Assembly: GCF_040958095.1 (NCBI RefSeq)
Contig: NC_091154.1
Coordinates: 43,848,735 to 43,912,734, forward strand
From: Procambarus clarkii
Lineage: Eukaryota; Arthropoda; Malacostraca; Decapoda; Cambaridae
DNA: 64,000 bases
Reading direction: 5' to 3'
Shown: piece after piece, positions 651-64,000 of the stretch
Layout of the letters: each line of letters opens with the position of its first letter
How positions within the stretch are numbered: position 1 is the stretch's first letter
Notes under the pieces: generated by a model
Databases searched by the model: none
Told to the model about the DNA's origin: nothing
The model's input: the letters and a program-made list of their open reading frames with translations, nothing else
Position numbers and translations under genes: made by a program

Positions 651-1184
651 GACCCCCCCAAAAAAAAAAAAAAAAAACGGCAGGGCAAGCTAGGAAACCA
701 AAGAAGGCGAAAGGGTCGCCGCCAGAACAGTACCCGAACCAAGGGGTACGAACAACTGCAATAGACCGAGACAAAGAAGCTTATCACAGGACACAGGCTG
801 AAAAACGCCCAAGAACACACGCAGAACACCCCTGCTGCAGAGGAGGCAGGAAGAAAGAGCAGAAGCACAAAAACCCCAGGAAAACAACCAGGGGTGGACA
901 ACCAGGCAGGGACAGAAAAACACCCACGCAATCCCCAGGCACAAAACAGCAGCAAAGTGCCACACCACAACCGGACACAGGAACAAGGACACGCCACCGT
1001 GAAACACGGTACCAATGCACACGTGCAGCAGCAGCAACAGGCACCACTGCAACATGCAACATGTAAATAGCAACTCCCTTCTGCAAAGGCAGAGAATGGA
1101 GCAGGCAGACCCCAAACAGGGCCAATGGAGACACGACAAAACCCCGCAGGCCCAGAAACCTGCACCAGGCGACCGACGGCGGAG

Positions 1185-1335
1185 AAACCCCGCTCGATAC
1201 CTGCTGGATGAGGTACTGGGAGCTCTGTTACACCTCAAGCCTGGCCCAAGGCCAGGCTAGACCGGCCAGAGGGTGGCCCACCAGGCAGCTGCTAGGAGCA
1301 TTCCGCCAGCCCACATACCCTCACAACCAGGATGG
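1185..1335. repeat. SINE-like dispersed repeat inside DIRS copy A
   Basis: The core AAGCCTGGCCCAAGGCCAGG and flanking words recur at 37733-37812, 43535-43740 and 52555-52725. The insertion sits at the same place in copies A and D, so it entered the RT-less DIRS subfamily before these copies spread. It has no clear tRNA head in the visible part, so calling it a SINE is an inference from its dispersion and size. Confidence 0.55.
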
Positions 1336-2261
1336 GCCGGAACTGCAATACGAAAACAGGCTAATGTGCCCTGGAAGTCCACGGACGAACCAGCAAGAAG
1401 GCTTATGCTCACAAGTAGGTCATGTAATAAGCACAGACCTCTGATGGTAATACAGTGTTCCCCAAATGTGCCAATAGCACCACTGCACTCCACTGGTACT
1501 ATCCCGCAAGTTCTACCAGATAGGCGGGACCCAAGAGCCAGAGCTAAAACCCTGCAAGCACAGCCAGGAGCCTTACCAGGTGAGCACAGAACCAACCCTA
1601 CAACCCCCACACCGCACAACATTAAAAAAGGTGGGTCCCCTGAATGACTCCAGCATGGGTTGGACATGCACATGAAGGGGACAGGAAGGGTTGAAAAAGG
1701 GACAGTCACTGGTGTGCGAACGGTCTCAGTCGTACAAAAATATACCTAAATAAAGACAGGTATATAAACAACTCCGCATCCAGCGCCCGGCCAAAAGACG
1801 CCAGACCGCAGAAACTCACCTGGCGAACGGTGGCACGAACTTGACACGACTCAACCGTGCCCAGAAGAACCTGGGAGCACCGCGAGGTGAAGACGCCAGA
1901 GCCGGACCCTGCTGGACCTGCAGGAGAGCAGGGAGAGGCGAAGGAGGCGGTCCACACCCATGACACAGGGAAAACCGCGGTGTCCTCCCCACATCTGGGA
2001 ACTAGGACACCCCCGGAGCGAAGGGGCACATACCGCAGCCAGGGAGAAGAACGAGAGGCGAAACACTGTAGCAAAAAGGGCGCAAAACACCAGCACTGAA
2101 ACACCGCCCAGACCAAAACAAACTCCACGGCGCATGCGCATAACACGCTGGCCGAACCGCACACCCTCTCTGCGGGAAGGCGCCAACCAGGACTACTGCA
2201 CGAGAAAAGTAGCCAAAAGAGGAAGCAGGAACAATAAAACCGGCCAAAGAAGCAAAGAGCC

Positions 2262-2412
2262 CAAAAAGTAGCCCAACCGGGCGACAAGTAGCCCAACAGG
2301 GCGACAAGTAGCCCAACAGAGCTACAAGTAGCCCAACAGAGCTACAAGTAGCCCAACCGACTCACAAGGAGCCCAACCGGGCCACAAGTAGCCCAAAACG
2401 GCGACAAGGACG
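2262..2412. repeat. 20-bp tandem array in DIRS copy A
   Basis: About seven copies of a 20-bp unit resembling GCGACAAGTAGCCCAACAGG lie between the recombinase part and the gag-like part. Copy D has the same array at 53590-53768 with about nine units, so repeat number varies between copies of the subfamily. Confidence 0.85.
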
Positions 2413-2528
2413 AGGAGCCGACAGATGTTCCAATAATGCGGGAAGTAGGGAAAACCTTCCCGAACCCTCGAGAACACAGAAGCCAACACTAGTCCCGAAG
2501 GCACACGAAGGCGCAGGCGCACCCGAGA

Positions 2529-2957
2529 TCAGAAGTCACGCAGAACCCCATCGAACAGGGAAACATGACGAAAACACCGTCCCAAAAATGGGTGGGAGGA
2601 AACATCCACCCACAGAACGGAACCAACCGACTCAAAGGCCAAGGAACCGAGCCCGGGGAGGGGCCGACCTCCAACAGCACGTACGGCGAGTGGGAAGGAA
2701 AAACCCCACTCCGCGTAACCACAAGCCCCGCCTAGAGGGGGATAAAAACCCCCACGGGGTCCAACGGTGCCAAGGCCCCCCAAGTCAGCCCCTCCCCAGC
2801 CCCGGGAACCTACACGACAGGCCCCGGGGCCGAGCCGTTCCCCCAAAGCCCCGGCCGTACCAGAAAACCGGGGCAGCCGTGAAAACACTAAGGAAGGGAG
2901 CCCACTGGCAGACTCATACAACACGGCTGGAGGAACAGGCTCAAATGCCCCCGTCAC
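2529..2957 (-). pseudogene. DIRS gag-like remnant (copy A)
   Basis: An open stretch beginning MTGAFEPVPPAVLYES matches the same frame in copy D (53919-54326). It aligns loosely with copy B around GVVTGALESVPLALAL (within 10061-10618), which lies where DIRS elements carry the gag-like first ORF. No CCHC knuckle is seen. Assignment rests on position and similarity between copies rather than on a named domain. The GC-rich sequence leaves several frames open by chance, so the true frame is uncertain. Confidence 0.4.
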
Positions 2958-4074
2958 TACCCCGGAAGGGGAATTCCCCGAGACTGCCCGAGTCTCAACA
3001 CCATCAAAAACCCCGCCCCGAACCTACAGACGGTAAGGAACCGGATGCAGGCAGGAAGGGTGATCCAGGGGAAAGACAAGGGGGCATGGATGGAACCGAA
3101 GCAACCAACACCCCCAAGTCCCAAAACGAACTACAACGAGGCAGCCCCGGGGCTCCCGGGGAGGAAACCACGAGAACGTTGCCACCACCAAGGCTCAAGT
3201 GCAACGCCCCTGGTGCCCGCACCCGCTTTGTCAGCACAACTGGGTAACCGAGTCACAACGAGCAACCAAACTCGCAGGACTCCGGGTCGAAGGTGTCACC
3301 GACCCCACAGGCAGCAGACGGAGGCAAAACAGAGAGTCACCCAGAGACAGAGGGTGAGAGCAACCCTCAAACTCGCTGGAAGCGAGGGGGGACTCTGGGG
3401 TCACATCCATCGGACCCGCACGCCCCCAGGGGTTTCCCAGGGTCCCGAGCCTTTACTATAAGAGGACTCGCGCTCAGGTAATCCCAGGCAGGGTACTGCT
3501 AACCGGCACCCAAAGCTACCAAACAACTTTCTAAGAGCTGAACCCCCGGGACGTTTACACTCATGGGGACCTAGCAGGGGGTACCACCAGAAAATACTCA
3601 GAACACAAGGGACACAAGGAGCAAGAACGAAGGCAGACCCCCCCCACCAGGTAGATAAACAAAAAGAAAAAGAAAACCCCGCAAGAGGACAGTGTACCCA
3701 AGCGGAACAGAGCCGGCCGCTATGATTGGTAAAGACAAGCTGCACAGTACCCTGCGCCCCACCAGTGCAAAAACTGCCCCTTATTCTAAGGCGAACAAGG
3801 GAGACAGAACACCCGAGCACACAATGACAGGCCGAAAACCAAGCAGGAAACGGCCAAGCAGGGGCAGGACCCAAGGAACTTGTGGAAGGTGGCCCCAAGC
3901 CCCAAGGGCAGTACTTACAGGGCACCTAGGGAAGGGAACCCTAGGTGCATGCAGCCAGAGTACTGGAGAATCACTCCTGGCTCACGCACCACCTAGAAAA
4001 CAGACACCACACTCTAGGTACAGTGCTGAAACAACCACTGGAGCCGGAGCACATAACCGGTGCCTATAGCATCA

Positions 4075-4504
4075 GCCGAAGAACTGATGGGTGGATAGCC
4101 GGCGTGGGAGGTCTGAGGCTCCCCCTTCCCCCTCCCGGGGAGGGGGGAGCTGCGCAGACAGCGGCGCGGTGACGTATGACGTCATACTAGTTTCCTTGTT
4201 TTCTGTTGAAGAGTTCTATCCACTAGTTCAGCTTTAGGTAGCAATTTTCACCAGAATAGGTTTTTTTTTTTGGAATGCTTACCTTTCTGGATGCTTGACC
4301 CGGTCGATGGCAGACATAGAATGCTTCCTACCACACGGGGGTTTCTATATGCCATTGCTCCCCTTGCCTCTCTGAGGGGGCCAGGTTCTGGCCGTGGTCC
4401 CCGGTAGGCCCTAGAACTCCATACACATGACTGACGCCAAAGTCTGATATTAGCATATCAGCCGGTAAAGGTCCGGGGAGCCGACGGGGCTCCCCCCAGA
4501 AAAG
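4075..4504. repeat. Right terminal inverted repeat of DIRS copy A
   Basis: This segment is the reverse complement of the left terminal region of copy D (50276-50672) and matches the right end of copy D (55453-55810). It retains about 80 bp around 4322-4395 that copy D's right repeat has lost. It carries the palindrome ATGACGTCAT near 4167-4178, a CRE/ATF-type TGACGTCA core also seen in copies B, C and D. Confidence 0.8.
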
Positions 4505-4522
4505 TTAGGTTAGGTTAGGTAG
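4505..4522 (+). repeat. Short interstitial (TTAGG)n
   Basis: Three TTAGG units directly abut the right end of DIRS copy A. TTAGG is the common arthropod telomere unit. The tract is too short to show a telomere and may be a target-site remnant or coincidence. Confidence 0.7.
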
Positions 4523-4612
4523 TCGAAAAACAATTAATTCATGAAAACTTGGCTTATTAAGCAAATTGGGCCTTGCATAGTAGGCTGAAAAGTGCGTTCT
4601 GGCTACTAGGTA

Positions 4613-4614
<2 letters not shown>

Positions 4615-4687
<73 letters not shown>
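4615..4687. repeat. (AT)n microsatellite
   Basis: An uninterrupted AT dinucleotide run of about 73 bases. It is followed by AT-rich sequence with three spaced copies of ATCAGTGTT within 4697-4785. Confidence 0.95.
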
Positions 4688-15986: not shown

Positions 15987-17765
15987 CCCTTAAAGTGCGC
16001 ATCACGTCATATGATGTGTTGGACGTTGTTCCAGTCAACTGCACATCATGTCATATGATGTGTTGGAGTACTACGCAAGATTTAAACGGCCCGCGGATAC
16101 ACAGAGTTCACCACACCTTCATCAGGGCTCTTGTAAACAGACGCCATTTTTTTTAAAAATCGTGGGCCAAAATTCCCGGGTGTTATTGGCCTCAGTATTG
16201 AGTGAGCTACCAAGCCTGACGCACGCAGCATGAGCTAACAGCACTGCTGTTCAGCTTGTGACCACAGCATCGCCTAAAAATGCCATAATATACTTGTTCA
16301 TGCTATTATGTAGCGATGATATTATTACTGAAGACCCCTGACTGTGATAAAACTGACCAGGGTTCTGATAATAGCAGGATTGTGGTGATATTTAGCGCTG
16401 TGCGCCATGGAGGGAGGAGTAATGCTGTGGGAGGGAGGGTGGTGGCGATGTCTTCTGACTGTGTGTGGCCACCTTTTATTGACTGCACTCACCATACCAG
16501 CTTAGTGTTTCGCTATGGTGAACACAAATGTAGATACTTATATATAACGTGTGTATAGAGGGTATAAACAGCAAGAAGAGAAGGTTGGGAGCCCCCAATT
16601 TTGGTGAGGACAGTGGCGTCGTCTGCACGACGCCACCGTGCAGACGACGGTGTTGTTTACTGGTTACCACGATGGATTTTGGGCACCATACCAGTTTACT
16701 TATACAAGTATGGTGAATAAAACAGGTAGATATTTATATATAATGTGTGTATATAGCGTAATAACACTACAAACAGTATTGTTGGAGGAGAAATATTAGT
16801 GCGTCTGGCCTTGAGGGCAGCAGCCATCAGCTGACTGTGTGAGGTCCTACGTCTTTGTGCCTTTACTCACCATACAAGCTTAGATGTACAGTTATGGTAA
16901 ACAAAACATGTAAATACTTATATATAACATCTGTATATAAAAGCAAAAACAGTATGGTGGGTGGAGAATGGTGGCAAGTCAGGTGAGGTGAGGGAGGGAT
17001 GGAGTGGCAGCCAGTGGCGGGCTGCCACTGCCTGTTACTGCCACTGCCACTCAGCATACCAACTTAGTGGCTCGTTATGGTGAACACGAATGTAGATACT
17101 TATATATAGCGTCTGTATATAGTGAATAAAAGCAAAAACAGTATTGTGGGAGGAGAATGTGGGTGAGTCAGATGACTTGAGGGAGGGCGGGAGTGGCTGG
17201 CTGGTGCACGGCGGTCACCCCTCGTTACTTTTTGACTCATAATAGCAACTTAGTGGTTCGTTATGGTGAACAAAACATGCAGATACTTATATATAACCTG
17301 TGCTTATAGTGTAATAACCGGCAAAGTATTTGTTCACTGATTGATGAACATAATTGAATCAACAATATGCACACCATATTTTTGAGTACAGCGATGATTC
17401 ACTCATTTTATTATATAAATATATCACACTACACACTATTGAACAATATTACAGCAAAAAAACTATGAAAAATCAATCAGAGACATTGAAATAATTAGGT
17501 AATTATCTCTTTGTGGCAACTCCGGCCTGACAGCTGGCGATCAACAGACCGCCTGGGACGCATGCTGAGTCAGCGCCTATTTTTTGCCAGACTTCCCCGC
17601 CCTATAGCGGGCAATATATGCCACTTACAATTTTTTTTATTATTTTTTCCCGTGATCAGTGAACACAAATTAACAGGTTAGGAAGAAAAAATAATTTTTT
17701 TTTTATTTCAAAATTACATGTGCCTGTGGGGAAGAAAGGATATTATACCCCTAGCATGTTAAGGG
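15987..17765 (+). mobile_element. TTAA-flanked piggyBac-like non-autonomous element M1
   Basis: TTAA at 15983-15986 and 17766-17769 flanks termini CCCTTAAAGTGC and GCATGTTAAGGG (imperfect inverted repeats starting CCCT, as in piggyBac elements). The body shares blocks with M3-M7. It contains five modules starting CACCATA or a decayed form near 16490, 16684, 16868, 17052 and 17237, each with a facing TATGGTG and a TACTTATATATAA word. No transposase domain remains beyond a possible acidic N-terminal relic near 16310-16375. Confidence 0.8.
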
Positions 17766-20689: not shown

Positions 20690-22196
20690 TATATGCTTTC
20701 GTGTCTAGCACTATAATTTAAACACCCCGCCTGGGATAGGGGCAGCTATAGTACAGCCACGGCCAATAGTTGCCAGATGCCACCTAGAAAAAAATCCAGG
20801 CCAACATTCTTGGGTGTTAGAGCGTCAGTATTGAGCAAGCCACCAAGGCTGGCGCACGCAGCACAAGCTCACAGCACCGCTGTTCAGCTTTGGACCACAG
20901 CATCGCTTACAAATGCCATAATATACATGATACTGCTATTATTTAGTGATGATAGTATTATAGAAGACCCCTGACTGTGATAAAACTGACCAGGATTCTG
21001 ATAATAGCAGGATTGTGGTGATATTTAGCGCTGTGCTCCATGGAGGGAGGAGTAAGGCTGTGGAAGGGAGGGTTGTGGCGTCGTCTTCTGACTGTGTGTG
21101 GCCACCTATTATTGACTGCACTCACCATACCAGCTTAGTGGTTCGCTATGGTGAACACAAATGTAGATACCTATATATAACGTGTGTATAGTGTGAGATA
21201 ACAGCAAGAGGAGTAGGTTGGGAGCCGCCATTTTGGTGAGGGAGATGCGTCGTCTGCACGACTTGTCATGTTGTTAACTGGTGGCCACTATGGTCTTTGG
21301 GCACCATACCAGCTTATTTGTACAGGTACGGTGAATAAAACAGGTAGATACTTATATATAATGTGTGTATATAGCGTAATAACACCACAAACAATATTGT
21401 TGGAGGAGAAATATTAGTGCGTCTGGCCTTTAGGGTTGCCGCCACCAGCTGACTGTGTGAGTAGCTATGTCTTTGTGCCTTTACTCACCATACAAGCTTA
21501 GATGTACAGTTATGGTGAACAAAACATGTAAATACTTATATATAACGTCTGTGTATAGTGAATAAATGCAAAAACAGTATTGTGGGAGGAGGACGAGTGA
21601 GGTGTTGTTGAGGGAGGGAGTGGCTATCTGGTGTGTGGCGGTCACTCCTCGTTGCTTATTGACTCACAAGACCAACTTAGTAGTTCGTTATGGTGAACAA
21701 AACATGCAGATACTTATATATAAAACCTGTGTATATAGTGTAACAACAGCAAAACTATTTGTTTATTGTTTTATGAACATAATAATTGAATCACTAATAT
21801 GCACACCATAATTTTGAGTACAGCAGTGGTTCACACATTTTATTATATAAATATACCACAATTCACTGTATGGAATAATATTACTGTAAAAAACTAAGAA
21901 AAAATAAATCGGAGACATTGAAATAATTAGGTAATAATATATTTGTGGCAACTGCCGTCTGACAGCTCGGGCGGAATAGACCTCGTCTGGCGAAGGCTCT
22001 GCCAACACCCCTTTTTTTTGCCAGACTTCCCTACCCTATTGCAGCTAAAATATGCCACCTACAATTTTTTTGTTATTTTTTCCGTGATCAGGGAACAAAA
22101 ATGAACACTTCTATAAGACGAAAGAATTTTTTGGATTTTTTGTTGTTGTTGCGCCTGTGGGTGTTAATTCCATTTGGGCCCCTAGTGGTTTGAGGG
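20690..22196 (+). mobile_element. piggyBac-like TTAA element M3, left end truncated
   Basis: The right terminus is GTGGTTTGAGGG followed by TTAA at 22197-22200. The left end starts inside the element at TTTCGTGTCTAGCACTATAA, so the first ~90 bases seen in M7 are missing. The body aligns with M5 and M7, including the GGGATAGGGGCAGCTATAGT block and the ~185-bp modules. Confidence 0.78.
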
Positions 22197-22292
22197 TTAA
22201 ACTAATTTACAAAATTACGTGTGCCACAAATTAGTGAACAAAAATCATTGAAACTCAGTCCTTCACTTGTATGGACCACTCTGGCTGGTGTT

Positions 22293-40182: not shown

Positions 40183-42003
40183 CCCTTAAATGGCGCATAG
40201 CTATATACCATTTGACACCCACAAGCGCATACCAAAAAAAAAAAAAAAAAAAAAATTTTTTCTTCCTAACCTGTTAATTTGTGTTCACTGATCACGGGAA
40301 AAATAATAAAAAAATTGTAAGTGGCATATATTGCCCACTATAGGGCGGGGAAGTGTGGCAAAAATCAGGCGCTGACTGAGCGTGCGTCCAAGGCGGTCTG
40401 TTGATCGCCAGCTGTCAGGCCAGAGTTTCCACAAAGAGATAATTACCTAATTATTTCAATGTCTCTGATTGATTTTTCGTAGTTTTTTTGCTGTAATATT
40501 ATTCAATAGTGTGTAGTGTGATATATTTATATAATAAAATGAGTGAATCATCGCTGTACTCAAAAATATGGTTATCTTGAGATGATTTCGGGGCTTTTTT
40601 AGTGTCCCCGCGGCCCGGTCCTCGACCAGGCCTCCACCACCAGGAAGCAGCCCGTGACAGCTGACTAACACCCAAGTACCTATTTTACTGCTAGGTAACA
40701 GGGGCATAGGGTGAAAGAAACTCTGCCCATTGTTTCTCGCCGGCGCCTGGGATCGAACCCAGGACCACAGGATCACAAGTCCAGCGTGCTGTCCGCTCGG
40801 CCGACCGGCTCCCAATATGGTGTGCATATTGTTGATTCAATTATGTTCATCAAACAGTGAACAAATACTTTGTCGGTTATTACACTATATACACAGGTTA
40901 TATATAAGTATCTGCATGTTTTGTTCACCATCACAAACCACTAAGTTGGTATGCTGAGTGGCAGTGGCAGTGGCAGGCAGTGACTGGCTGCCACTGGCTG
41001 CCACTGGCTGCCTCACCTCACCTCACCTGACTTGCCACCATTCTCCACCCACCATACTGTTTTTGCTTTTATATACAGACGTTATATATAAGTATTTACA
41101 TGTTTTGTTCACCATAACTGTACATCTAAGCTTGTATGGTGAGTAAAGGCACAGAGACGTAGCTACTCACACAGTCAGCTGGTGGCGGCCGCCCTCAAGG
41201 CCAGACGCACTAATATTTCTCCTACAACAATACTGTTTGTGGTGTTATTACGCTATATACACACATTATATATAAATATCTACCTGTTTTATTCACCATA
41301 CTTGTACAAGTAAACTGGTATGGTGCCCAAAGACCATCGTGGTCATCAGTAAACAACATGATAAGTCCTGCAGACGACGCGCCACCCTCACCAAAATGGC
41401 GGCTCCCAACCTCCTACTCTCGCTGTTATCTAACACTATACACATGTTATATATAAGTATCTACATTTGTGTTCACCATAGCGAACCACTAAGCTGGTAT
41501 GGTGAGTGCAGTCAATAAAAGGTGGCCACACACACTCAAAAGACAACGCCACCATCCTCCCTCCCACAGCATTACTCCTCCCTCCATAGCGCACAGCGCC
41601 AAATATCACCACAATCCTGCTATTATCAGAACCCTGGTCAGTTTTATCACAGTCAGGGGTCTTCTGTAATATCATCGCTACATAATAGCATGAACAAGTA
41701 TATTATGGCATTTTTAGGCGATGCTGTGGTCACAAGCTGAACAGCAGTGCTGTGAGCTCATGCTGCGTGCGTCAGGCTTGGTTGCTCACTCAATACTGAG
41801 GCCCCTAACACCCCGGAGTTTGGCCCACGATTTTTTTTTTTAAATGGCGTCTGTTTACAAGAGCCCTGATGAAGGTGTGGTGAACCCCGTGTATCCGTGG
41901 GCCGTTTAAATCTTGCGTAGTACTCCAAAGCATCACATGATGCGATGTGCAATTTACTGCAAGTCAGTCAAAGCATCATATGATGCGATGCGCAATTGAA
42001 GGG
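40183..42003 (-). mobile_element. piggyBac-like TTAA element M4 with inserted SINE
   Basis: TTAA (40179-40182 and 42004-42007) flanks CCCTTAAATGGCGC and GCGCAATTGAAGGG. Without the SINE it is about 1.58 kb. Modules with TATGGTG...CACCATA (inverted orientation) recur at ~185-bp spacing. The right end contains CATCATATGATGC palindromes like those at the left end of M1. Confidence 0.82.
40572..40813 (-). mobile_element. tRNA-derived SINE in M4
   Basis: On the minus strand the head reads GCCGGTCGGCCGAGCGGACA and then TGGGTTCGATCCCAGGCGCC, with pairing acceptor-like and T-arm-like ends, followed by the common body. Direct repeats AATATGG lie at 40565-40571 and 40814-40820. Sister elements M6 and M7 show the same locus without the SINE. 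Confidence 0.9.
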
Positions 42004-46620: not shown

Positions 46621-48147
46621 TTAAACACCCCGCCTGGGATAGGGGCAGCTATAGTACAGCCACGACCGATAGTTGCCAGATGCCACCTACAAAAAAAATC
46701 CAGGCCAACATTCTTGGGTGTTACAGCGTCAGTATTGAGCAAGCCACCAAGGCTGGTGCACGCAGCACGAGCTCACAGCACCGCTGTTCAGCTTGTGACC
46801 ACAGCATCGCCTACAAATACCATAATATAAATGATACTACTATTATTTATTAGTGATAGTATTACTGAAGCCCCCTGACTGTGATAAAACTGACCAGGAT
46901 TCTGATAATAGCAGGATTGTGGTGATATTTAGCGCTGTGCTCCATGGAGGGAGGAGTAAGGCTGTGGGAGGGAGAGTTGTGGCGTCGTCTTCTGACTGTG
47001 TGTGGCCACCATTTATTGACTGCACTCACCATACCAGTTTAGTGGTTCGATATGGTGAACACAAATGTAGATACTTATATATAACGTGTGTATAGTGTGA
47101 GATAACAGCGAGAGGAGTAGGTTGGGAGCCGCCATTTTGGTGAGGGAGGAGCGTCGTCTGCACAACTTGGCATGGTGTTTAGTGATGGCCACTATGGTCT
47201 TTGGGCACCATACCAGCTTATTTGTTCAGGTATAGTGAATAAAACAGGTAGATATTTATATATAATGTGTGTATATAGCGTAATAACACCACAAACAATA
47301 TTGTTGGATGACAAATATTAGTGCGTCTGGCCTTGAGGGCGGCCGCCGATCAGCTGACTGTGTGAGTAGCTACGTCTTATGGCCTTTACTCACCATACAA
47401 GCTTAGATGTACAGTTATGGTGAACAAAACATGTAAATACGTATATATAACGTCTGTGTATAGTGAATAAATACAGAAAGAGTATTGTAGGAGGTGAATA
47501 AGGGTGAGGGAGGGAGTGGCAGTGAGTGGCTCGCTGGTGTTTGGCGGTCACTTCTCGTTGCTTTTTGACTCACAAGACCAACTTAGTAGTTCGTTATGGT
47601 GTACAAAACATGCAAATACTTATATATAACCTGTGTATATAGTGTAACAACAGCAAAACTATTTGTTTATTGTTTTATGAACATAATTGAATCACTAATA
47701 TGCACACCATAATTTTGAGTACAGCGATGGTTCACACATTTTATAATATAAATATACCACAATTCACTGTATGGAATAATATTACTGCAAAAAAACTAAG
47801 AAAAAATCAATCAGAGACATTGAAATAATTAGGTAATAATATATTTGTGGCAACTGCCGTCTGACAGCTCAGGCGGAGTAGACCTCGTCTGGCGAAGGCT
47901 CTGCCAACGCCCCTTTTTTGCCACACTTCCCTACCCTATTGCGGCCCACGATTTTTTTTTAAAATGGCGTCTGTTTACAAGAGCCCTGATGAAGGTGTGG
48001 TGAACCCCGTGTATCCGCAGGCTGTTTAAATCCTGCGTAGTACTCCAACACATCATATGACATGATGCACAGTTGACTGGAACAACGTCCAGCACGTCAT
48101 ATGACGTGATGCGCACTTTAAGGGTTCAAGTTCATAAATAAAAAAAA

Positions 48148-57091: not shown

Positions 57092-57095
57092 TTAA

Positions 57096-58687
57096 CCCTC
57101 AAACCGCTAGGGGCCCAAATGGGATTCACACCCACAAGCGCAACAAAAAAAAAAAAATTCAAAAAATTCTTTCGTCTTATAGAAGTGTTCATTTTTGTTC
57201 CCTGATCACGGAAAAAATAACAAAAAAATCGTAGGTGGCATATTTTAGCCGCAATAGGGTAGGGAAGTGTGGCAAAAAAAGGGGCGTTGGCAGAGCCTTT
57301 GCCAGACGAGGTCTACTCCGCCCGAGCTGTCAGACGGCAGTTGCCACAAATATATTATTGCCTAATTATTTCAATGTCTCTGATGGATTTTTTCTTAGTT
57401 TTTTTGCAGTAATATTATTCCATACAGTGAATTGTGGTATATTTATATTATAAAATGTGTGAACCTTCGCTGTACTCAAAATTATGGTGTGCATATTAGT
57501 GATTCAATTATTATGTTCATAAAACAATAAACAAATAGTTTTGCTGTTCTTACACTATATACACAGGTTATATATAAGTATTTGCATGTTTTGTACACCA
57601 TAACGAACTACTAAGTTGGTCTTGTGAGTCAAAAAGCAACAAGGAGTGATCGCCAAACACTAGCGAGCCACTCACTACCACTCCCTCCCTCAACACCACC
57701 TCACTCACCCTCATTCACCTCCCACAATACTCTTTCTGTATTTATTAACTATACACAGATGTTTTATATACGTATTTACATGTTTTGTTCACCATAACTG
57801 TACATCTAAGCTTGTATGGTGAGTAAAGGCCATAAGACGTAGCTACTCACACAGTCAGCTGATCGGCAGCCGCCCTCAAGGCCAGACACACTAATATTTC
57901 TCCTCCAACAATATTGTTTGTGGTGTTATTACGCTATATACATACATTATATATAAGTATCTACCTGTTTTATTCACCATACCTGAACAAATAAGCTGGT
58001 ATGGTGCCCAAAGACCATAGTGGCCATCAGTAAACAACATGCCAAGTCGTGCAGACGACGCTCCTCCCTCACCAAAATGGCGGCTCCCAACCTACTCCTC
58101 TCGCTGTTATCCCACACTATACACACGTTATATATAAGTATCTACATTTGTGTTCACCATATCGAACCACTAAGCTGGTATGGTGAGTGCAGTCAATAAA
58201 TGGTGGCCACACACTGTCAGAAAATGACGCCACAACCCTCCCTCCCACAGCCTTACTCCTCCCTCCATGGAGCACAGCGCTAAATATCACCACAATCCTG
58301 CTATTATCAGAATCCTGGTCAGTTTTATCACAGTCAGGGGGCTTCAGTAATACTATCACTGCTAAATAATAGCAGCATCATTTATATTATGGTATTTGTA
58401 AGCGATGCTGTGGTCACAAGCTGAACAGCGGTGCTGCGAGCTCGTGCTGCAGTGCGCCAGCCTTGGTGGCTTGCTCAATACTGACGCTGTAACACCCAAG
58501 AATGTTGGCCTGGATTTTTTTTCTAGGTGGCATCTGGCAACTATCGGTCGTGGCTGTACTATAGTTGCCCCTATCCCAGGCGGGGCGTTTAAATTATAGC
58601 ACTTGACACGAAATCATATATAAATGATGTGCGCGGTTTCGGTTTTGTCACTGATATTATTTATATATGATATGCGCGGTTTGAGGG
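57096..58687 (-). mobile_element. piggyBac-like TTAA element M6
   Basis: TTAA (57092-57095 and 58688-58691) flanks perfect CCCTCAAACCGC / GCGGTTTGAGGG termini. It is nearly colinear with M7 in inverse orientation. Modules with CACCATA/TATGGTG recur at ~185 bp. The plain element without internal insertions is about 1.59 kb and serves as the reference copy. Confidence 0.88.
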
Positions 58688-58691
58688 TTAA

Positions 58692-59186
58692 TAATCATTA
58701 ATATTCTCCATTTGAATTTACCTATTGATTCTATAATATTTTAGGTCATAATATTATTTACTCAACAATGAACTGGTGACGAACCACACTAGTTCCTAGA
58801 CGTATATGAAGTTCTAGCAATACCCCCCCCCCCCCATGTAGGTGTTTGAGGCTCTGACTTTAGTTAATTAATCATACAGTCCATTATTTATTTAAGTGAT
58901 TATTCTTTCTAATACCTATCCATAGACACTGGTTTTCCTTGTGTTTTCTAATGATCACTTTTTATTAGTTTCCCTCTTTACTCAAAAGTGGGTGGTCCTT
59001 CGTTATTAAATTAAATAATTAAATAATTAAATAATTGAGTCAAGCCCCAGATATCCCACATTATGGTCCTTATCGAACCGAATTAGATATATATATATAC
59101 TAATTAGTAATAACTAATCATCGTGTGAAGTAGTGTACCACATAGGTTAGCCTAATTCACACCAATTCATTTGCTACTTATACCTC
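58692..59186. other. 5' region of the BEL/Pao-like element, LTR not identified
   Basis: AT-rich. ACTGGTGACGAACC at 58770-58783 resembles a retroelement primer-binding site start (TGG...), which would put the end of a 5' LTR near 58770. No second LTR is in the window, so this cannot be confirmed. A run of ten C lies at 58825-58836. Confidence 0.3.
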
Positions 59187-59711
59187 ATGTATAAGGTAGC
59201 ACTCGTGGGACACAGTCAGTTACCTACAACACTTAGACCTATACCTCATACTGAAGTAAGAATCTTTAGGTCACCAGGAGCAACAGCTCATAACTTCTAT
59301 AACAATTCCACACTAACACCTGTGTTAGAGTGGCCTCACCATCTAACCATCTTTTATTTGGGTGGTAATGACATCCATCCTACTCGGCATCCAGCTGAGG
59401 TAATTAATCACCTTAAAACCATAATTTCCTCATTTAAACTCATCAGCAATTCGGTATTCACATTGGTGGAACCTCGCCAACTGAGTAATAATAATCGTTG
59501 GGGAGTAAGCCCAGAATATTACCAAAGAGCTGCCAAATATATAAACTTTAGGCTGAGGAAGCGAGTATGATTGGATGCCACTTATATTCAATTTACAGCC
59601 AGACCATACAGGCAAAACCTGGCAAGAGATGGTGTACACCTGTCAGGTGAGTCTAGGTCACATGTAGTTGACAAATTGATCAACACAATCACTGCAAATG
59701 GCTGTGGCTAG
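59187..59711 (+). pseudogene. SGNH-hydrolase-like protein upstream of a BEL/Pao gag, one stop
   Basis: A 174-codon frame broken only by TGA at 59568-59570 (codon 128). It starts MYKVALVGHSQLP (block I-like G-x-S), continues VRIFRSPGATA, then LTIFYLGGNDIHP (block III G-x-N-D), then VEPRQLSNNNRWG, and after the stop ATYIQFTARPYR and LARDGVHLSGE (block V D-x-x-H). The order and spacing fit an SGNH/GDSL-type esterase fold; the usual GDS is GHS here, so Asp of block I is replaced. It lies 640 bases upstream of a BEL/Pao gag on the same strand. Whether it belongs to that element or is an older insertion is not shown. Activity, if any, in an intact relative would be ester hydrolysis. Confidence 0.55.
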
Positions 59712-60352
59712 CAAGCCAAAATTAACTGTACATAATTGTTTTTCACCTGTGTGTGCAAGTGCACATTTATATAAACTATAAAATCCAAAAAAAAAAAAAA
59801 ATACAGCACAGCTATATATTCACATTACTGCACCACAATATAATCTTTGCCAACCTTTATTAGGTAGGAATTTAGGCTGTGATTGTGCTGAATTTGGCAC
59901 AAACGCAGACTAAATAAATTTGTAGTTTCTAGGTAGAAATTCTCACAACTAGGCTTGAGCTAGTTAGTAGTACATATATTATTCATTCTTGTGCTGACCC
60001 TATCAAGGGTGGGTTAGACCTTCGGATAACTCTGATTAGTGTATATCCATATTACTTATTCTTGTACTCATTATTTGTGTGTATGCATTTTGAGTGCTGC
60101 TGAATGATCACCATTACATCTAATGGTGATAAAGATGAGCTAGCCGGACGAAAGTTAATGGTGAAGTTCAAGCACTGCTCAAAATAATTAGTTACTTATT
60201 GTTAGGTAGGTAAATTAACCTCTGAACGAGGTAGTGTAGTCTATTCAAATACACTAGGCTATTATATTGATATTGAACTCCATTGAATGAGTCAATATCC
60301 CAGTTACATCAGTAACAACTATTTACTATCAAATCAGCCTTTACCCAGCAAG
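59712..60352. other. Leader between SGNH-like frame and gag
   Basis: Non-coding AT-rich sequence with a TATAAA-like word in ATATAAACTATAAAATCC near 59769. It could hold a promoter or the 5' leader of the gag transcript. Nothing else is recognised. Confidence 0.35.
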
Positions 60353-62630
60353 ATGGAAACGGCTGACAAAATGAAAAGGGCCCTTATCAGTCTGAAAGGT
60401 CATTTGACCTGACAGATTACCAAATGTCAAAATCTGTCACATCAGTCACCTGTTGACTACCTTGAATTAGAAGATTTACTTCAAGTTGCTGAAGGCAAAT
60501 TCGCACATATTAACCCTCAAACCGCACATATCATATATAAATGATATCAGTGACAAAACCAAAACCGCGCACATCATTTATATATGATTTCGTGTCTAGC
60601 GCTATAATTTAAACGCCCCGCCTGGGATAGGGGCAGCTATAGTAAAGCCACGACCGATAGTTGCCAGATGCCACCTAGAAAAAAAATCCAGGCCAACTTT
60701 CTTGGGTGTTACAGAGTCAGTATTGAGCAAGCCACCAAGGCTGGCGCACGCAGCACGAGCTCACAGCACCGCTGTTCAGCTTATGACCACAGCATCGCCT
60801 ACAAATACCATAATATAAATGATACTGCTATTATTTAGCAGTGATAGTATTACTGAAGCCCCCTGACTGTGATAAAACTGACCAGGATTTTGATAATAGC
60901 AGGATTGTGGTGATATTTAGCACTGTGCTCCATGGAGGGAGGGTTGTGGCGTCGTTTTCTGACTATGTGTGGCCACCATTTGGCACTCACCATACCAGCT
61001 TAGTGGTTCGATATGGTGAACACAAATGTAGATACTTATATATAACGTGTGTATAGTGTGAGATAACAGCGAGAGGAGTAGGTTGGGGGTCGCCATTTTG
61101 GTGAGGGAGGACCGTCATCTGCACGACTTGGCATGGTGTTTACTGATGGCCACTATGGTCTTTGGGCACCATACCAGCTTATTTGTTCAGGTATAGTGAA
61201 TAAAACAGGTAGATACTTATATATAATGTGTGTATATAGCGTAATAACACCACAAACAATATTGTTGGATGACAAATATTAGTGCGTCTGGCCTTGAGGG
61301 CGGCCGCAGATCAGCTGACTGTGAGTAGCTACGTCTTATGGCCTTTATTCACCATACAAGCTTAGATGTACAGTTATGGTGAACAAAACATGTAAATACG
61401 TATATATAACGTCTGTGTATAGTGAATAAATGCAAAAGAGTATTGTGGGAGGTGAATGAGGGTGAGTGAGGTGGTGTTGAGTGAGGTGGTGTTGAGGGAG
61501 GGAGTGGCAGTGAGTGGCTCGCTGGTGTTTGGCGGTCACTCCTCGTTGCTTTTTGACTCACAAGACCAAGTTAGTTGTTTGTTATGGTGTACAAAACATG
61601 CAAATACTTATATATAACCTGTGTATATAGTGTAACAACAGCAAAACTATTTGTTTATTGTTTTATGAACATAATAATTGAATCACTAATATGCACACCA
61701 TAATTTTGAGTACAGCGATGGTTCACACATTTTATAATATAAATATACCACAATTCACTGTATGGAATAATATTACTGCAAAAAAACTAAGAAAAAATCC
61801 ATCAGACATATTGAAATAATTAGGTAATAATATATTTGTGGCAACTGCCGTCTGACAGCTCGGGCGGAGTAGACCTCGTCTGGCGAAGGCTCTGCCAACG
61901 CCCCTTTTTTGCCACACTTCCCTACCCTATTGCGGCTAAAATATGCCACCTACGATTTTTTTGTTATTTTTTCCGTGATCAGGGAACAAAAATGAACACT
62001 TCTATAAGATGAAAGAATTTTTTGGAATTTTTTTTTTGTTGCGCTTGTGGGTGTGAATTCCATTTGGGCCCCTAGCGGTTTGAGGGTTAAGCAACATATG
62101 AATCTGTATTTGACAGAACTTTACTCAACTTCTATAGGTGAAACTGAACTTGAGGATATTGTAAATGACTTAGCCCAGTATGAAGATGATATACAGGTTA
62201 AGCTTCAACCCTTTAAAAAGCAAATTGCTAAAATCAAATTAACAATAACCTCTACTGCACATCCAGATCCTGATGTCAAATTACCTCAGATCAACATACC
62301 CACATTCTCTGGTAACGAGAATGAAAGTTGGGATGATTTCTGGAGTAAATTCGTGGACGCAGTAGACTCTAAAGTCAACATTCCTCAAACAACCAAATTC
62401 ACTTACAGTATTTACAAGGCTTGTTACGAAATGAAGCCTTGAAAGTAATTTCTAACATAACACTGACCAGTGATGGTTACACCCTAGCTGTTCAATTGCT
62501 CAAAACAAACTACGATAACAAGGAGAGAACTATTACTGTCTTAGTTCAAAAATTGCTAGATTTACCATCTGCTAATAATTCTACCGATTCTCTCCAAACT
62601 TTCAGGCTAGAGTTAGAATCTTTACTCTAG
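60353..62630 (+). pseudogene. BEL/Pao-type gag (DUF1759-like), split by element M7
   Basis: Exon-like parts 60353-60513 and 62087-62630 read in one frame across the TTAA insertion. Part 1 starts METADKMKRALISLKG and has TGA at codon 20 (60410-60412). Part 2 contains the DUF1759 hallmark LPQINIPTFSGNE, SWDDFWSKFVDAVDS, then after a frameshift LLRNEALKVIS and AVQLLKTNYDN. The frameshift is caused by five extra bases within 62406-62415. It stops at 62628-62630 just before another TTAA element. Gag would form the particle of an LTR retrotransposon. No pol is in view. Confidence 0.82.
60514..62086 (+). mobile_element. piggyBac-like TTAA element M7 inside gag
   Basis: TTAA (60510-60513, 62087-62090) flanks CCCTCAAACCGC / GCGGTTTGAGGG. 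Host gag sequence is continuous across it, giving an exact empty site. 1573 bases long. Its left 95 bases and the GCTATAATTTAAACGCC word are the undisturbed counterpart of the site where P1 landed in M5. Confidence 0.92.
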
Positions 62631-63687
62631 GCCTTAACCCTTAAACTGCGCAACGCGCTTGCAGGCTCACGTCTGGTTTGCGCAACGCGCCTCCGGGTAT
62701 TTGTATTTTTCACGTTCCATTCAAAACTCCCGCGGCTACATAGGGTTCACATCAGCTTCCTCAGGGCTCTTGTAAACAGACGCCATCTTTAAAAAAAATC
62801 GTGATCCACATTCCCGGGTGTGGGAGCCTCAGTAGTGTGTGAGCAACCAAGGCTGGCGCTCGCAGCATGAGCGCACAGCACTGCTGTTCAGCATGTGACC
62901 ACAGCATCGCCTAATAATGTCAAAATATATATATAACTTGTATTATTTAGCTATGATAGTGTTATATTAGAGCCTGAGTGTGATAATGACTGGGTACAAT
63001 GTTCAAATATCAGTGATTCAATGCTGTTCACGATGTTCACAGCGCTAGCCACAGCACCACAGCATTATTTCGTTCATCTAGGAATCTTCAAATGATTTCT
63101 TAGGTTCCTTTTCAAAATAAACATGTGGTCAATTATTCATTTACAGGAATTAGTGACCAGGATTGTGATAATAGCAGGATTGTGGTTATAATTAGCGTTG
63201 TGCGTAGTATTGTGGAAGGAGGAATTTTGATGAGGCAGGGAGGGCGAGAATTGAGGTAGCCTCATTGTGTGTGTGTGGCTAAAACTCTTGTTTTGCTCAC
63301 CATACTAGCTTAGTGGTTCGCTATGGGCAAAACATATGTACATGGGTATATATAGTGTGTGTATATAGTGTAAGAACAGCAACAGGAGAATGTTGAGAGG
63401 AGCTATTTTGGTGAGGGAGGTGACGTAATCGTATCGTCGTCTGCTGTGTGATTTTTCATGCCGTGTATGGTGGCCACTGTACTGTTTGGACACAATACCG
63501 GCTTACTTGCATAGTTCTGGTAAATGAAACATGTAGATAGGTATATAGAACATGTGTAATAAGAACTATAGCAATATGGTGGGAGGAGCAATGTTGGTGA
63601 GTAAGATGTTGGAGTGAGGGAGACTGGCTGGGTGTGGCTGCTCTCACTCGAGGTGTTCTGAATGTGTTCATGGCCAAATGCTCCTAT

Positions 63688-63896
63688 TGGCCCATACGAG
63701 GCAGCTCCTATTGGCCCATACGCGGCAGCTGCTATTGGCCCATACAAGGCAGCAGCTATTGGCCCATACGGGGCAGCTGCTATTGGCCCATACGAGGCAG
63801 CTGCTATTGGCCCATACGAGGCAGCTGCTATTGGCCCATACGAGGCAGCTGCTATTGGCCCATACGAGGCAGCTGCTATTGGCCCAGGCTACGAGG
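63688..63896. repeat. 24-bp minisatellite inside M10, at least 8 units
   Basis: The same unit as 36094-36590. One unit is broken off at ATTGGCCCA by the SINE. Confidence 0.9.
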
Positions 63897-64000
63897 GGGC
63901 CTCGTAGCCTGGTGGATAGCGCGCAGGACTCGTAATTCTGTGGCGCGGGTTCGATTCCCGCACGAGGCAGAAACAAATGGGCAAAGTTTCTTTCACCCGG
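63897..64000 (+). mobile_element. tRNA-headed SINE, cut by window end
   Basis: A nearly intact tRNA-like head (63899-63969) is followed by GAAACAAATGGGCAAAGTTT and CTTTCACCC, the body shared with the other SINEs in the window. The tail lies beyond the window. Confidence 0.85.
63899..63969 (+). tRNA. tRNA-Thr(CGT)-like head of a SINE, not an independent tRNA gene
   Basis: Seven acceptor pairs (GCCTCGT with ACGAGGC), a perfect T arm (GCGGG TTCGATT CCCGC), and an anticodon arm CAGGA-CTCGTAA-TTCTG giving anticodon CGT. The D arm is weak (GCCT against GCGC, with one linker base short). Because the SINE body follows at once, this is a retroposed tRNA-like promoter (A and B boxes for RNA polymerase III). 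A tRNA finder could still report it as a gene. Confidence 0.45.

Follow-up and report, generated by a model that had tools for sequence, protein, structure and literature searches.

A putative SGNH hydrolase gene upstream of gag in a BEL/Pao long terminal repeat retrotransposon family of Procambarus clarkii

Introduction

Open reading frames (ORFs) for proteins of the SGNH/GDSL type are already in print, in the accessible parts of the literature, for several kinds of retroelements, namely long interspersed nuclear elements (LINEs), Penelope-like elements, Ngaro-like elements, and long terminal repeat (LTR) elements of rotifers. The present study concerns an SGNH-hydrolase-like ORF that lies 5' of gag in a BEL/Pao LTR retrotransposon of Procambarus clarkii. 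It was noticed in a 64,000-nt stretch of contig NC_091154.1 (hereafter the window) and was followed through the host genome (4.03 Gb, 2308 contigs).

In bdelloid rotifers, GDSL ORF3s are described from LTR elements (Vesta-type) and Penelope-like elements in the accessible text of PMC5408684. Vesta-type elements resemble the family described here in being LTR retrotransposons that carry a GDSL/SGNH ORF with the catalytic residues present. However, their ORF3 exists besides ORF1 (gag) and ORF2 (pol), whereas here the SGNH ORF is located 5' of gag; the lineages are called retrovirus-like in that source and are not BEL/Pao by our own reading; and their ORF3 is reported to evolve without significant departure from neutrality, in contrast to the purifying selection indicated below (PMC5408684). 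Ngaro-like tyrosine-recombinase elements likewise have an extra SGNH ORF beside gag-like and reverse transcriptase (RT)/RNase H ORFs, but it is placed after the recombinase, and the elements are bounded by split direct repeats rather than by LTRs of the BEL type (available portion of PMC9210276).

A second point of comparison is provided by LINEs of the CR1/L2/RTEX type such as ZfL2-1 (PMC3905857, accessible part; PDB 4c1b), in which an SGNH ORF with the same catalytic set also stands 5' in the element RNA. The ZfL2-1 esterase has hydrolytic activity on p-nitrophenyl (pNP) acetate and affinity for negatively charged lipids, and it may aid assembly or transport at membranes (PMC3905857). In the LINE, which is a non-LTR element and has no gag, the esterase is fused to a coiled coil, whereas the ORF described here stands alone beside a normal gag and lacks the transposon-specific His/Ser pair of the ZfL2-1 type (PMC3905857). 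BEL/Pao elements themselves are described with gag, pol, and rarely env, and with LTRs of 0.2–1.2 kb (PMC3118150, accessible part). No SGNH gene in BEL/Pao was found in the literature searched, which covered few subscription journals and preprints and had Repbase outside its scope, and this is not proof of absence. As far as these searches reach, a position 5' of gag in BEL/Pao is an unreported place for an SGNH gene, and the example adds another retroelement class to the recurrent recruitment of SGNH proteins.

Linkage of the SGNH ORF to gag

The arrangement is probably best explained by the capture, in a BEL/Pao family, of a small hydrolase of the SGNH type that is encoded on its own, in an ORF before gag. 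The window frame (coordinates in Table 1) was used as a genome query (139 residues), and 150 of 4680 first-look candidates were scored, all of them 90–100% identical. The 30 best loci, including that of the window, were read in detail, and 20 of them have 181 codons without a stop or indel. A gag start was detected downstream of the SGNH ORF by tblastn of pieces in 25 of the 30 loci, again including the window's own, at a distance from the start of the SGNH frame of 1201–1247 bases in 23 loci, 1077 in one, and 1488 in one. The linked loci fall into two groups by their gag: 11 have one close to that of the window (subfamily A), and 14 have one that is only 31–56% identical in pieces (subfamily B). 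The reverse comparison gave a similar picture, as the 12 best subfamily-A gag loci have the SGNH ORF upstream in nine cases and an interrupted leader in three.

Two of the five loci without gag in the tblastn test (L006 and L025) are interrupted. In the other three (L002, L003, and L029), homology ends directly past the SGNH stop and a listed gag lies 5.3–5.7 kb downstream, these spacings coming from a hand-picked subset of places. An insert of ~4.1–4.5 kb is seen just past the SGNH stop in five paired places on contigs C1 and C139 (L002, L003, L029, and L072), which may represent a segmental duplication or a co-amplified insert.

All 150 SGNH places were also paired by coordinates with 300 gag places, which are the best 150 of more than 10000 candidates for each subfamily. 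A listed gag on the same strand occurs 1077–1247 bases downstream of 70 SGNH places, and 11 have a listed gag at 1.4–9 kb; the other 69 have none among the gag matches listed, a figure that does not equal the count of gag-less copies. Among the same matches, no gag on the opposite strand was found within 9 kb of the 150 SGNH places. A smaller gag set, with 61 of the 150 subfamily-A places (the first 53 and eight that were picked), gave figures equal to those of the full 150 + 150. In one region (G000:C73:22577506-22618213), six subfamily-B gag matches lie on one strand, mostly at intervals of ~6.06 kb, a spacing that would fit a tandem array of part of the element.

Long Terminal Repeats and Primer Binding Site

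Upstream and downstream pieces were fetched separately for five copies (two of subfamily A and three of B), and an LTR common to both pieces was found in four of them. The paired LTRs are 97.8% identical over 535 bases, 97.1% over 1188, and 97.0% over 1633, while the fourth pair is 95.3–96.9% identical over two parts of ~700 bases and is followed by further LTR-like and tandem matches. In the fifth copy, no 3' LTR was found within the fetched stretch. Seven LTRs have both edges, five of them 1.62–1.64 kb long and two 1.40 and 1.54 kb; they start with TGTTGGAAATTTCCAACA (with small variants), an 18-base palindrome (L035, L043, and L045), and end with CCCACA. Both copies in which the two outer edges were found are flanked by 5-bp target duplications (AGTGG and CCATT).

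In the window, the 5' LTR ends at 59060, and the ATG of the SGNH ORF is 126 bases past that end; the ORF is therefore internal to the element. The alternative layout, in which an LTR would end just before gag, was not seen. A primer-site-like word at 58770, taken in the preliminary description as a candidate primer site upstream of both ORFs, does exist but lies inside the LTR, and is rejected as the primer site because the LTR runs to 59060; the likely site begins at 59064. A primer-site match is present in 27 of the 30 loci, with the exact 17-mer TGGTCCTTCGAACCGGA in seven. This 17-mer pairs with ..TCCGGTTCGAAGGA followed by CCA; the former belongs to a word that occurs 43 times in the genome and is presumably the end of tRNA-Tyr. 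ARAGORN found no tRNA gene for the primer-site word, and the 5' half of tRNA-Tyr was not found near the two of the 43 matches that were checked. For four 3' LTRs, the sequence immediately before the LTR ends in CCCCGGAGTTA, with no purine run there.

These results bear directly on whether the SGNH frame is a chance neighbour, left over from the esterase of a LINE or a host gene and placed 5' of gag by accident. The copy in the window is broken and surrounded by nested repeats, and LINE ORF1 esterases are common in the genome, all of which would suit such a coincidence. However, the linkage to gag, seen in 25 of the 30 loci read and at 70 of the 150 listed places, together with the location of both ORFs between LTRs, makes a chance association very improbable. 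A single segmental duplication of the linked copies does not agree with their spread over many contigs or with the two distinct target duplications. The preliminary description had left the choice between an extra gene of an LTR retrotransposon and an accidental neighbour; the co-occurrence of the SGNH frame, gag, and LTRs supports the former, and the SGNH frame is almost certainly an internal gene of the element.

Identity of the Element and a Control Family

The element is a BEL/Pao LTR retrotransposon, with a Pao-type pol, a DUF1759 gag, an LTR pair, a primer site, and short target duplications. Pieces of both subfamilies have matches above the cut-off to DUF1759, Peptidase_A17 ("Pao retrotransposon peptidase"), RVT_3, and Integrase_H2C2. 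In subfamily A (L032 and L033), RVT_1, PF05380 (E 9e-29), PF13456, and PF17921 are above the cut-off and rve is below it, and two scanned pieces (L032:1968-2333 and L033:663-1061) gave no domain match. In subfamily B (L040, L041, and L045), PF05380, PF13456, PF17921, and PF18701 (DUF5641) are above the cut-off, and RVT_1 and rve are below it. One piece of L037 (copy A28) has a strong RVT_1 match that was left unused, as it may belong to an insert there. The gag DUF1759 domain (PF03564) was matched in fetched copies at E 3.4e-23 and 1.8e-24, and in the window at E 2.8e-12, which bears out the earlier assignment of a genuine gag on the same strand 3' of the SGNH-like frame.

The likeness to canonical BEL/Pao elements thus extends to gag, Pao peptidase A17, RT/RNase H, integrase, DUF5641, LTRs, and short target duplications, the domain list and the duplication length being in part general background. 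The differences from the elements covered in the accessible part of PMC3118150 are the extra 5' ORF and an LTR of about 1.6 kb, compared with 0.2–1.2 kb.

A control BEL family was recognized by a frame of ~1128 residues in many of the genome's best Peptidase_A17 matches. In two copies of it, which share 98% identity over 3.9 kb, there is a similar primer site and a leader of about 730 bases, in which no forward ORF of at least 80 codons before gag and no SGNH match were found (two copies of one family). In the SGNH family the leader measures about 1.29 kb, and its excess over the control leader is approximately the size of the ORF.

Selection and Catalytic Residues

Comparison of the copies indicates that the SGNH ORF is under purifying selection on its protein sequence. 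Synonymous (dS) and nonsynonymous (dN) divergence was computed for 11 x 11 copies, leaving out the five gag-less loci, L014 and L015 (near-copies of L013), and L021. Across the 121 A–B pairs, mean dS is 0.186 and mean dN 0.020, a ratio of 0.11, and the ratio is 0.13 within A and 0.15 within B. In one A–B pair, dN/dS is 0.12 for the SGNH ORF, 0.19 for RT, and 0.26 for part of the integrase. Pulling the other way, one B–B pair has an SGNH ratio of 0.25, which is not lower than that of gag (0.22) or RT (0.18). Variants with the minor base in at least three of 23 copies (L002, L003, L006, L019, L021, L025, and L029 left out) are distributed 6/5/33 over the three codon positions of the SGNH ORF, with a p of 1.9e-8 that is nominal only, since the copies are related. 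The flanking controls, however, come from the same copies, and they gave 16/14/12 in the three phases of the leader after the ORF and 7/7/10 before it.

The residues expected of an SGNH hydrolase are also retained. The blocks occur in the order S10, G31, N61, D149, and H152 (catalytic Ser, Gly, Asn, and Asp-x-x-His) and align with those of LINE esterases, with Ser10 and Asn61 kept in all 30 copies and Gly31, Asp149, and His152 in 29 of the 30. In the window frame, the motifs GHS, GGND, and DGVH are present in the order first described. The accompanying statement that the frame is broken by only one stop needs to be amended, as this copy also lacks seven bases relative to another copy. The frame is open over 59151–59570, with its first ATG at 59187, and continues in the same phase from the in-frame TGA to 59711. 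The 150 scored copies, the uninterrupted 181 codons in 20 of the 30 best loci, and a third-position bias not seen in the flanking leader indicate that the frame did not arise by chance.

Relationship to SGNH Proteins and LINE Esterases

On the basis of the conserved blocks and profile comparisons, the protein is very likely an SGNH-like hydrolase. Lipase_GDSL_2 was matched at 15.1 bits (E 0.035) in the window copy and at 19.6–25.3 bits in five open copies, compared with a cut-off of 32.9. The genome's ten best loci for Lipase_GDSL_2 represent a different SGNH ORF of one kind. Two of them were scanned, and an ORF with Exo_endo_phos adjoins the SGNH ORF in both, with a reverse transcriptase as well in one; these neighbours identify the strongest Lipase_GDSL_2 loci as LINEs, presumably of the CR1/L2 group. 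LINE copies with an SGNH ORF1 are abundant in the genome (L051–L060), some with a coiled-coil-like stretch before it as judged by eye. The BEL SGNH ORF aligns with these same-genome LINE ORF1 esterases with the catalytic motifs in common, and the two profiles match with an hhalign probability of 85 (E 6e-6, 145 columns). The identity is only 25–29%, which argues against a recent fragment of these LINEs. A mixed profile found 4c1b, an ORF1-encoded protein, as the best of 16 PDB sequences (E 1.4e-11), a match driven by the LINE rows.

Several results weigh against this assignment. The Lipase_GDSL_2 matches of the five open copies (E 2.6e-5 to 1.4e-3) are below the curated cut-off, two copies searched against NCBIfam gave no match, and a profile built from BEL sequences only found no SGNH structure in the PDB. 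The fold check suggested in the preliminary description had a divided outcome: a prediction from BEL rows only was poor, with a predicted local distance difference test (pLDDT) score of 45 and a predicted template modelling (pTM) score of 0.40, and the better model (pLDDT 64, pTM 0.69) depends on LINE rows, although in that model strands and helices alternate in a fitting order, Ser10 following strand 1 and Asn61 following strand 3. In addition, phmmer of the window ORF against the PDB returned nothing relevant, and IMG/VR searched with the SGNH protein gave no match.

The SGNH fold might be kept by a binding or structural protein without hydrolysis, and SGNH proteins without catalysis, such as Oskar, are cited in the accessible part of PMC3905857. 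The transposon-specific residues H191 and S228 of ZfL2-1 correspond, as counted on the alignment, to Tyr57 and Val95 here, so the pair is absent. The pair test discriminates little, as the LINE rows from the same genome are likewise without the His/Ser pair by eye. Retention of all five catalytic positions in 29–30 of the 30 copies makes a non-catalytic protein unlikely, and a hydrolase is preferred.

The coiled coil that precedes the esterase in LINEs is absent, and the BEL SGNH ORF starts at the first strand. The ATG is at strand 1 and so leaves no space for a leader peptide, and no leader or membrane segment was apparent in the ORF when read by eye. These features bear on a possible Env-like role, in which the ORF would aid the exit of the element from cells and its entry into them. 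Such a role is considered formally possible for the enzymatic ORF3s of rotifer LTR elements in the accessible text of PMC5408684, but for an ORF of this structure it is highly unlikely.

Two Subfamilies and the Gag Head

Subfamilies A and B do not differ evenly along the element. Four A and four B copies are ~90–97% identical in 75-base windows across the SGNH ORF and the leader that follows; beginning some 110 bases upstream of the gag ATG, the identity drops to 80% and then to 42–68%. In one A–B pair, the gag proteins are 25–58% identical in 40-residue windows up to residue ~320 and 80–100% identical thereafter, and dS is 0.94 for gag compared with 0.23 for the SGNH ORF, 0.20 for RT, and 0.16 for part of the integrase. 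The N-terminal part of gag is likewise strongly divergent between L017 and L027, which represent otherwise ~90% identical subfamilies, with fairly sharp edges (from about 60237 to residue ~320). Since the SGNH ORF and pol are similar and the gag head is divergent, the gag head appears to have been exchanged or replaced, and the difference may reflect recombination. The gag of the control family has an overall identity of 46.7% to A (75% in one 40-residue window) and 39.2% to B. The contrast between what the two subfamilies have in common and what sets them apart makes exchange of a gag head in an animal LTR element visible.

Expression and Possible Role

The element is organized as 5' LTR, primer site, SGNH ORF (~181 codons), leader of ~0.63 kb, gag (DUF1759), pol, and 3' LTR, an order from which a model of expression may be drawn. 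Counted from the primer site, beyond the LTR, the SGNH ATG is the first in two A copies and is preceded by one ATG in two B copies. Its start context is weak (CTCATGT or ATCATGT), whereas that of gag is strong (AAGATGG in A and GCCACCATGG in B). Between the SGNH ORF and gag there are 5–11 ATGs, which speaks against plain scanning to gag. The SGNH protein may thus be made at a low level from a cap-proximal ORF with a weak start context, and gag would be reached by leaky scanning, internal entry, or splicing.

The early position of the ATG in two of the four copies and the weak context relative to gag would also suit a regulatory upstream ORF, in which the act of translation rather than the product tunes gag expression. 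A mere upstream ORF needs neither selection at the amino-acid level nor kept catalytic residues, and this alternative is accordingly improbable compared with a functional SGNH product.

The SGNH product is predicted to be a soluble cytosolic hydrolase. Its substrates could be lipids or acyl esters at membranes, where it would act while particles are assembled or transported, in line with the proposal made for the ORF1p esterase of ZfL2-1-type LINEs. By this analogy, a membrane or lipid role is a reasonable possibility, still short of probable. A broader proposal, offered tentatively, is that the SGNH hydrolase recruited by BEL/Pao may serve as an accessory enzyme, encoded next to the cap and needed at a step of the particle cycle that involves membranes, that its esterase-first 5' order recalls CR1/L2 LINEs, and that the SGNH gene rather than the gag head could be the stable partner of pol. 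The BEL/Pao example speaks for a general importance of lipid or acyl-ester chemistry in retroelement life cycles.

Layout of the Window

The features of the window copy are given in Table 1. The first ~1.26 kb of the LTR had no match detected within the window. The upper limit of 60513 in the preliminary description stands only in part: gag does start at 60353, but 60513 is merely the edge of an inserted repeat, and gag resumes at 62087. A second insertion begins near 62634–62645, after the gag continuation, and gag and pol resume beyond the window, where the adjoining 5 kb is 96% identical to the gag/pol of a relative from its position 1039 to 4630.

Table 1. Features of the BEL/Pao copy and adjoining repeats, in window coordinates
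Feature	Position	Strand	Evidence or remark
Inverted copy of nested repeat, abutting LTR remnant, foreign to element	57092..58691	.	94% to 60510-62090
3' part of 5' LTR, ending ...CAGATATCCCACA	58692..59060	+	93% identity to LTRs of two other copies over 58688-59060; LTR edges
Likely primer binding site, TGGTCC..CGAACCG, two extra bases in window copy	59064..59082	+	3 bases past LTR end
SGNH-hydrolase-like ORF, decayed (in-frame TGA 59568-59570, small deletions)	59187..59711	+	Relatives have open 181-codon versions
Leader, SGNH ORF to gag	59712..60352	+	Between-subfamily DNA homology stops near 60237-60262
BEL/Pao gag start, one in-frame stop in window copy	60353..60513	+	tblastn of pieces in 25/30 loci
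Nested TTAA-flanked repeat (~1.58 kb) splitting gag, foreign to element	60510..62090	.	Inverted copy 57092-58691, 94%
gag continued, DUF1759	62087..62645	+	PF03564 E 2.8e-12; 96.6% to another copy

The SGNH region is bracketed by two TTAA-flanked repeats of ~1.6 kb in inverted order, and a related repeat seems to break gag again near 62634. Further copies in the window are located at 20690–22200, 46621–47945, 40212–41853, and 16155–17700. The repeat contains internal sub-repeats spaced about 181–208 bases, and its TTAA targets are reminiscent of piggyBac-type elements. At the right end of the window, a 24-base tandem repeat (63680–63895) lies beside a sequence that is tRNA-like by eye (about 63888–63970).

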